Below the pieces are notes generated by a model. The model was not told the DNA's origin and searched no databases. It saw only the letters and a list, made by a program, of their open reading frames with translations. DNA of 64,000 nt, taken from positions 12,244 through 76,243 of the forward strand of contig JAJYRG010000001.1 in the NCBI GenBank assembly GCA_021794195.1, given 5' to 3'. Shown here piece by piece: positions 2,505 through 7,941 of the stretch. The position numbers and the translations under genes were made by a program. How positions within the stretch are numbered: the stretch's first letter is position 1; each line of letters opens with the position of its first letter. This DNA is from Bacteroidota bacterium. GTDB lineage: Bacteria > Bacteroidota > Bacteroidia > Sphingobacteriales > Sphingobacteriaceae.

Positions 2505-3188
2505 CTATACAGTTTCAATAATTTTACGGATAGGTTTAAATATTTTCTTACTGATCCGCTTTAAAAGGGATTGTTTTTTTGTCATTCTTTCTAAGCGTTT
2601 TTTTGCTTCTATTTTACGATTTATTTTTTCTTTCCGTTCCTTTTCTTTTTCTACAGGATCCCATAGCATGGCTGTACATAAACAATTTTGGCGGCCTTTG
2701 CTCATTAATATATCGTAATTTACACAGCTTTTGCAGCCATCCCAAAAGGCATCGTCTTCGGTAAGTTCGGAATAGGTTACGGGTTCATACCCCAGATCCG
2801 AATTGATTTTCATGACAGCTCTTCCCGTAGTAAGCCCGAATAGCTTGGCCTTTGGATACCTTTCACGGGAAAGCTCAAAAGCACGTTTTTTAATCGCTTT
2901 TGCAAGACCTGCTTTTCTAAATTCCGGAGCAACGATTAAGCCTGAGTTAGCTACATATTCTCCATGTCCCCATGTTTCTATATAGCAAAATCCTGCCCAC
3001 CGCCCATCTTTATGCAAAGCAATAACCGCTTTACCTTCTTCCATTTTCCGCGCTACGTACGCCGGTTTACGTCTGGCGATACCTGTGCCTCTTACCTTGG
3101 CAGATTCAAACATTTCATCACAAATCTGTGTGGCGAATATTATATGTTCGCTGTTTGCAGGCTGTATAAGAAAATCTGTTAAATACAT
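2505..3188 (-). CDS. GNAT-family N-acetyltransferase, first gene of the arginine operon (putative N-acetylglutamate-synthase-like role)
   Basis: GNAT-like core (SGLIVAPEFRKAGLAKAIKKRAFEL), same strand and directly upstream of argG-argC; lysine/arginine-rich C-terminal tail. Confidence 0.75.
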   Translation of the reverse strand: MYLTDFLIQPANSEHIIFATQICDEMFESAKVRGTGIARRKPAYVARKMEEGKAVIALHKDGRWAGFCYIETWGHGEYVANSGLIVAPEFRKAGLAKAIKKRAFELSRERYPKAKLFGLTTGRAVMKINSDLGYEPVTYSELTEDDAFWDGCKSCVNYDILMSKGRQNCLCTAMLWDPVEKEKERKEKINRKIEAKKRLERMTKKQSLLKRISKKIFKPIRKIIETV

Positions 3189-3284
3189 TTTATTGACAAA
3201 TCATTGAATGTGGAAACCCTAATTTAATTACTTTAAAAACATCAAGCTATCATGTTTTTTTGCGAGAGATACACTGCCTCTTTC

Positions 3285-3419
3285 TTAAGCTCGGGGCAGA
3301 TAGGGTCGTCGAAATCTGAGGGTAGGTAAGATTTTAATCATAAAATGAGACATAACATGCCGGATATGCATTTTTCTTACATTCAACGTAATGGACGATA
3401 TATCACTTGTTGTACTCAT
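3285..3419 (-). CDS. Putative 44-aa leader ORF MSTTSDISSITLNVRKMHIRHVMSHFMIKILPTLRFRRPYLPRA (below the ORF-track cutoff)
   Basis: Read by hand: ATG at 3419, TAA at 3287-3285; lies about 20 nt downstream of a perfect TAAATTTG -7 box and 96 nt upstream of the GNAT start; Arg codons AGA..CGA CGA..CGA near its end. Confidence 0.3.
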   Translation of the reverse strand: MSTTSDISSITLNVRKMHIRHVMSHFMIKILPTLRFRRPYLPRA

Positions 3420-3438
3420 TTATTTCGTTCAATTAATA

Positions 3439-3446
3439 CAAATTTA
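3439..3446 (-). promoter_or_regulatory. Bacteroidota-type -7 box TAAATTTG for the arginine operon
   Basis: Exact match to TAnnTTTG on the minus strand; -33 element weak (CTTTATG about 20 nt upstream). Confidence 0.45.
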
Positions 3447-3622
3447 CTAAAGTTTTGTGCGAATACATAAAGTTTTGATAAAATTAAAAGCAATTTGCTT
3501 TTTGTTAGAAAAGTAAAAGTGTTGGATATCCCAATAAAATAAACCCCCGGATTTTAAGTTTTCGCCTAAGGTAAACGCGGCCTTTGTTTGAGCTGCATAT
3601 TTTAGATGTGAGAAAAATAAAC

Positions 3623-6918: not shown

Positions 6919-7941
6919 ATGAGTAATAAAGATAAATTGAAAGCATTGCAATTGACTTTGGACAAGTTGGAAAAGTCGTACGGTAAAGGTGCTATTATGA
7001 AGTTGGGAGACTCGGCTGTAGAGCCCATAGAATCCATCTCTACCGGATCTTTGGGGCTGGATATAGCACTGGGCATAGGAGGCGTGCCCAAAGGAAGGGT
7101 AACTGAAATTTACGGCCCTGAGTCGTCTGGAAAAACTACTTTAGCTACGCACATCATTGCTGAAGCCCAAAAAAAAGGAGGAATTGCGGCAATTATCGAT
7201 GCGGAACACGCGTTCGATAAATACTATGCTCAGAAACTGGGGGTTGATGTAGAGAATTTATTAATCGCCCAACCGGATAATGGAGAGCAAGCACTGGAAA
7301 TCACAGATAACTTAATTCGTTCAGGAGCAGTGGATGTAGTGGTGATAGACTCTGTGGCAGCACTTGTCCCAAAAGGTGAAATAGAAGGGGAGATGGGAGA
7401 CTCGAAAATGGGTTTACAGGCCCGACTGATGTCGCAAGCTTTACGAAAACTGACCGGAACGATTTCAAAAACAAACTGTAGCTGTATTTTTATCAACCAA
7501 TTGCGTGAAAAAATAGGGGTGATGTTTGGTAATCCAGAAACTACAACAGGAGGGAATGCTTTGAAGTTTTACTCTTCTGTACGGTTGGATATCCGAAGAA
7601 TGGGCCAGATCAAAGATACGGATGAAGTATCGGGGAATAGGGTGAAGGTACGTGTAGTGAAAAATAAAGTAGCTCCGCCATTCCGTATTGCAGAGTTTGA
7701 TATTATGTTTGGCGAAGGAATTTCCAAAGTAGGAGAAATATTAGATTTAGGTGTGGATTATAATATTATCAAAAAGGCGGGTTCTTGGTTCAGTTATGGA
7801 GATACCCGATTGGGGCAAGGCCGCGAAGCCGTAAAAAAACTCTTATTGGATAACCCGGATTTGATGGAAGAATTGGAAAATAAAATACGGACGGAAGTTA
7901 CCGGAGAGGATTTGGATAAAAAAGAATTGGAAGAAAAATAA
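6919..7941 (+). CDS. recA: Recombinase RecA
   Basis: [13 protein letters not shown] Walker [58 protein letters not shown]. Confidence 0.98.

Follow-up and report, generated by a model that had tools for sequence, protein, structure and literature searches.

The GNAT-argG-argC operon described here is preceded by a mini-ORF (mORF) that is, by comparison with its homologues, real and strongly conserved, and we consider it moderately probable that the arginine-sensing leader peptide it would encode controls the operon in place of the repressor ArgR, by means of a leader fold linked to translation. Arginine sensing by the leader is well supported by comparison among relatives, and ribosome pausing on its Arg-Arg codons probably tells the cell when to make arginine. 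The response to arginine, the direction of the switch and an output through translation rather than through Rho or mRNA stability are what we infer. A sequence-only reading of the same DNA had proposed an Arg-codon leader peptide working by classical transcription attenuation; the conserved, apparently translated peptide in a genome without ArgR stood up, whereas the classical attenuation did not.

Genomic context of the arginine operon

The window, a stretch of 64,000 nt, comes from a genome (G000; contig 102 of 155 contigs) that falls within the Sphingobacterium genus group and is about 90% complete. The operon lies on the minus strand and begins with a gene for a GNAT-family acetyltransferase (PF00583; 2505..3188, ATG at 3188), followed by argG, encoding argininosuccinate synthase (PF00764 and PF20979; 1233..2426), and argC, encoding a protein of the N-acetyl-gamma-glutamyl-phosphate reductase type (PF01118 and PF22698; 154..1173). 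The Pfam matches agree with this gene order, which had been read from the sequence, and argG is found directly 3' of GNAT in 73 of 80 related loci. In this genome (locus L275), the next minus-strand ORF past argC is a small, REP-associated transposase-like ORF (7341-7799), so the operon here probably stops at argC. A second GNAT match, with about 45-48% identity, lies elsewhere in several of the larger Sphingobacterium genomes (G016:C1, G009:C34, G018:C36 and G026:C11), and the majority of these second matches are interrupted by internal stop codons.

Upstream of the mORF, the predicted Bacteroidota -7 promoter box TAAATTTG is present on the minus strand at 3439..3446, as previously reported. 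Its consensus TAnnTTTG, 21-52 nt 5' of the mORF start codon, occurs in 91 of 151 distinct upstream regions of the comparative set and in none of 151 reversed controls.

A conserved leader peptide with an arginine-rich end

The 44-codon mORF, MSTTSDISSITLNVRKMHIRHVMSHFMIKILPTLRFRRPYLPRA-stop, extends on the minus strand from the ATG at 3419 to the TAA at 3285 (3285..3419), with the C-terminus LRFRRPYLPRA, exactly as first described. A long ATG ORF alone is unsurprising in the window leader, given that at least 40 codons are reached in 9% of its dinucleotide shuffles. What is surprising is the cluster of four Arg within the final eleven codons, as an ORF of that length with at least four Arg among its last 11 codons arose in only 0.02% of the shuffles.

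The comparison drew on the sequences upstream of GNAT homologues in public genomes and in family members. In Sphingobacterium and Parapedobacter, a set in which some species appear twice (83 distinct sequences among 99), 98 of the 102 leaders have exactly 44 codons and end RRPILPRA-stop (RRPYLPRA in the window), and the mORF lies 86-145 nt upstream of GNAT. An Arg-ended mini-ORF is likewise located 5' of GNAT in Mucilaginibacter, Daejeonella, Pedobacter and other genera, usually with argG as the next gene. Across the leaders the mORF has a length of about 41-45 residues, and in other Sphingobacteriaceae its C-termini are RRPFMPRT, RRRPYMPRV, RRPIMPRA and the like. The mORF is thus kept throughout the family in position, length and Arg codons. 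Residue conservation is poor and selection weak in the N-terminal part of the Sphingobacterium peptide, where dN/dS is 0.34; this value, obtained outside the structured end, argues for translation of the mORF.

Almost all Sphingobacterium genomes carry the leader pattern at GNAT, and it occurs once per genome, bar a few unrelated pattern matches; these counts were made with a pattern other than CGACGACCNNTNYTNCCN, which did not match the window (CTAT there, TATT in relatives). In one Sphingobacterium genome that is 99% complete (G022), argG, GNAT and the leader are all absent, and this strain is probably an arginine auxotroph.

The Pedobacter-type leaders (L092-L094, L099, L101, L103-L106 and L108-L111) have no CGA-CGA and encode a peptide of 44 residues that ends near NRQN(Y/F)TPRI; they carry an invariant CGG codon, followed by CAA, CAG or CAT. 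With dN/dS values of 0.23 and 0.11 and few Arg codons, these peptides are under strong purifying selection, and from their sequences this type of leader looks more like an arrest peptide. A leader of this type with its GNAT was also found under a record titled as a Flavobacteriaceae bacterium (L104), which is possibly mislabelled. In Myroides and Flavobacterium-like loci (L044, L046, L049, L064 and L069), the mini-ORFs end in SRxxRxRA-stop, mostly with CGG instead of CGA. Other families of the class also have mini-ORFs 5' of the arginine GNAT (L248, L250, L251, L255, L256 and L264), with ends such as PFFPRR, PFFIRR, FFRRR, YISRR or SRRA and, in some, a common core such as LFSIPAGIVF; judged by their sequences, these may represent a wider leader family.

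An invariant CGA-CGA dicodon

The proposed sensor is the CGA-CGA dicodon (Arg37-Arg38; 3306..3311, minus strand), which is invariant across the three main groups, in all 149 leaders (102/102, 23/23 and 24/24). Elsewhere in the mORF the choice of Arg codon is free: all six codons (CGA, CGC, CGG, CGT, AGA and AGG) are used for the Arg at codon -11, and three for the penultimate Arg. In Mucilaginibacter, each CGA codon is retained in 23 of 23 leaders while the synonymous sites of the same stretch vary (pS 0.41). Pairing does not explain the conservation of CGA, since the first CGA lies largely outside the long-range helix in most Sphingobacterium leaders.

Among the genes of the window, CGA is the least used Arg codon, with 5% of all Arg codons, and none of the 25 Arg-Arg pairs is encoded by CGACGA. 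The tRNA-Arg anticodons found were ACG, UCU, CCU and CCG, in an incomplete genome in which six weaker tRNA hits were only partly typed; among the typed hits there was none with the anticodon UCG. In other bacteria, CGA is then read by inosine, and slowly. In the his leader of Salmonella, Arg-Arg pairs containing CGA give high-level de-attenuation (PMC4046918). A caution comes from Salmonella orf34, in which frequent Arg codons are as effective as rare ones (PMC6386406). Considering the rarity of CGA, the ACG tRNA as the only one found for it and the his-leader precedent, the fixed CGA-CGA is best read as a slow dicodon that would respond to tRNA-Arg(ICG).

Conserved pairing of the leader RNA

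Four conserved pairings were recognized in the leader, all given here on the minus strand. Element 1 (GACCCUA, over the Arg-Pro-Tyr codons; 3301..3307) and element 1' (UAGGGUU; 3215..3221) are the 5' and 3' strands of the long-range helix 1:1'. The P1 hairpin, CUGCC...GGCAG, carries the mORF stop codon in its loop (3274..3299), and P2, AAAAACAU...AUGUUUUU, occupies 3235..3259. The P2 loop, AGCUUG, is complementary to CGAGCU, the Arg-Ala codons at 3293-3288. Both the minimum free energy structure and the centroid of the window leader contain 1:1', P1 and P2, and a shorter fold also has 1:1' and P1, while the fold energy is ordinary (z 0.26).

In pair counts made on an element-anchored alignment, with the 3' strands of P1 and 1' partly fixed through short motifs, P1 (CUGCCUC/GAGGCAG) is paired in 97.4% of cells in relatives and in at most 67% in slid controls, with double changes in three pairs (G-C to A-U, U-A to C-G and C-G to U-A). 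Double changes affect 7 of the 10 RNAalifold consensus pairs of the P2 stem. The pairing of the P2 loop with the Arg-Ala-stop region is formed in 94.3% of cells in relatives, compared with at most 48% in slid controls, and shows A-U to G-C in 14 sequences; the count is conservative, as a one-position offset of the P2 columns leaves the window row largely unpaired. The core pairs of 1:1' form almost always. Two of the five are invariant and two nearly so; U-A changes to C-G in 14 sequences, and two compensatory changes (A-U to U-A and U-A to A-U) separate the window from its relatives. A slid-partner control of 1:1' at +2 gave a covariation score of 0.118 versus 0.101, but with just 33% of cells paired.

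With RNAalifold on the raw MAFFT alignment, P2 was recovered, and P1 and 1:1' were not, owing to a column shift of P1 in the multivorum group and a split 1'. P1 and 1:1' draw their support from a small number of varying pairs and independent events, with changes that cluster by clade. Element 1' starts 15-18 nt upstream of the GNAT start codon in relatives versus 33 nt in the window, about 16 nt further away. Single folds of leaders from Mucilaginibacter, Daejeonella and other genera did not recover a 1:1' helix, so the output may vary by genus. The pair counts with their double changes support all four pairings, and the conserved pairings point to a fold that takes in the stretch ahead of the GNAT start codon.

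Two further structures had been singled out in the sequence-only reading. The arms CAGAT (3318-3314) and ATCTG (3301-3297) are present in the window and absent from the aligned relatives, and this CAGAT-N12-ATCTG arrangement was rejected as a signal. The hairpin AAAAACAT (3259-3252)/ATGTTTTT (3242-3235), which had been taken for a weak terminator, is the species version of the conserved P2, and the consensus scan did not identify it as a terminator.

Searches for terminators, ArgR and known families

In the window leader, the consensus scan found no intrinsic terminator. Of 76 Sphingobacterium and Parapedobacter leaders, only 7 contain a hairpin and U tract that resemble a terminator. P2, or a hairpin 5' of 1', was therefore rejected as an intrinsic terminator in the sense of a general feature. 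ArgR (PF01316) was detected in none of the 60 genomes of relatives, the window's own included, while 9 of the 14 controls were positive, Bacteroides among them. Rfam covariance models, those of T-boxes, riboswitches and amino-acid leaders included, gave no match at the gathering score, and none at E<=1 over 3100-3550. Four representative leader peptides had no Pfam match at E<=1, DUF2618/PF10940 included, and NCBIfam gave no match for the leader or the peptide. In the open-access literature, we found no earlier paper that describes an arginine leader peptide for Sphingobacterium or for Bacteroidota at large.

Proposed mechanism and alternative explanations

Under the proposed mechanism, with Arg-tRNA plentiful, the ribosome would clear CGA-CGA, terminate at the mORF stop codon and depart. 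The leader could then close, with 1:1' enclosing P1 and P2 and the P2 loop resting on the Arg-Ala-stop codons, and this closed fold would hinder initiation at GNAT. When Arg-tRNA is scarce, above all tRNA-Arg(ICG), the ribosome would pause at CGA-CGA, where it would cover element 1 together with the 5' strand of P1; the fold would stay open, and GNAT-argG would be translated.

A nascent-peptide arrest is the main alternative, though an unlikely one: a peptide with the end P-R-(A/V/I/T)-stop would detect free arginine, or some metabolite related to it, in the exit tunnel and stall the ribosome at or near the stop codon. The fixed length of the mORF would fit such a mechanism, as would the Pedobacter-type peptides, with their conserved N-terminal residues, strong purifying selection, few Arg codons and lack of CGA-CGA, and the recurrence of PR-x-stop or RR-stop endings across other families of the class; SpeFL (ornithine) and TnaC offer precedents for arrest at termination (PMC8429421). 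However, invariance of CGA at the level of the codon, beyond that of Arg, is unexpected for a pure peptide sensor, and Sphingobacterium peptides show poor conservation of their N-terminal part. In the Sphingobacterium arrangement, moreover, a ribosome arrested at the stop codon by the end product would keep the fold open and give induction, not repression. A chance ORF, or an RNA or DNA element conserved alone and untranslated, is very improbable and already contradicted by the comparative sequence data: although the C-terminal codons overlap paired RNA, so that their conservation is partly structural, the 44-codon length is kept without frameshift, selection acts outside the structured part and Arg is retained even where CGN and AGR codons replace each other.

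The other alternatives differ from the proposed translational switch in how the position of the ribosome would be read out. Classical transcription attenuation, with the ribosome choosing between an antiterminator and an intrinsic terminator 5' of GNAT, would agree with the end-product codons of the leader peptide and with the hairpins followed by U-rich stretches in some leaders (e.g. L035 and L176), and leader-peptide attenuation before amino-acid operons has been inferred in Flavobacterium psychrophilum (PMC9723704). Yet the conserved element 1' sits 3' of any potentially terminating hairpin, and the rarity of terminator-like sites among the leaders, with none in the window, argues that classical attenuation is not the general output; we regard it as improbable. 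The conserved helices are possible candidates for an antiterminator, with no terminator found for them to compete with. Control through Rho or mRNA stability, coupled to translation of the leader, would fit the lack of a conserved intrinsic terminator and has a reported parallel in Salmonella orf34-speF, where RNase G sensitivity and Rho termination change with orf34 translation and with ribosome pausing at successive Arg codons (PMC6386406). Translation accounts better for the conserved pairing beside the GNAT start, and control of this kind seems quite improbable here.

More broadly, and only tentatively, a class-wide, fast-diverging family of arginine leaders may have replaced ArgR in Bacteroidia, with branch-specific readouts of a single ancestral leader: tRNA-Arg(ICG) via CGA-CGA in most Sphingobacteriaceae, and peptide arrest with PR-x-stop or RR-stop endings elsewhere, in Pedobacter and further families. 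The leader control proposed for the operon would explain how arginine synthesis is regulated in a large group of Bacteroidota without ArgR and would extend leader-peptide control to an arginine biosynthetic operon. It would also provide a natural case of selection fixing one slow codon pair, the inosine-read CGA-CGA, as a sensor. The arginine leader is directly testable in culturable species of Sphingobacterium, Mucilaginibacter and Pedobacter.

Comparison with known leader systems

Like the trpL and hisL attenuators, the leader has a short ORF, predicted to be translated, that carries end-product codons upstream of a biosynthetic operon and overlaps RNA helices. It differs from them in preceding an arginine operon, in the lack of a conserved intrinsic terminator, in its single dicodon of fixed codons, CGA-CGA, and in a conserved pairing that extends to the region before the start codon of the first gene. 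A parallel in the use of two consecutive Arg codons for sensing arginine supply is the gamma-proteobacterial leader ORF34/SpeFL (PF10940) of speF, whose translation opens a structure hiding the downstream ribosome-binding site (PMC6386406). Unlike ORF34/SpeFL, the peptide described here has no Pfam match, its Arg pair lies near the end of the ORF with the codon identity fixed, and the pathway under control would be arginine synthesis instead of ornithine decarboxylase. In the cys operons of Actinobacteria, leader ORFs with Cys runs and no obvious terminator were likewise predicted by comparison from their end-product codons (PMC1262725); no conserved hairpins were reported there, whereas hairpins and a long-range pairing are conserved here.

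The proposed mechanism also resembles the translational attenuators of ermC and ermB, in which the position of the ribosome on the leader ORF sets the pairing of the next initiation region, although the trigger proposed here is the lack of Arg-tRNA and not an antibiotic. As an upstream ORF that would respond to arginine supply, the leader can finally be compared with the fungal arginine attenuator peptide, a eukaryotic arrest peptide that acts at high arginine.
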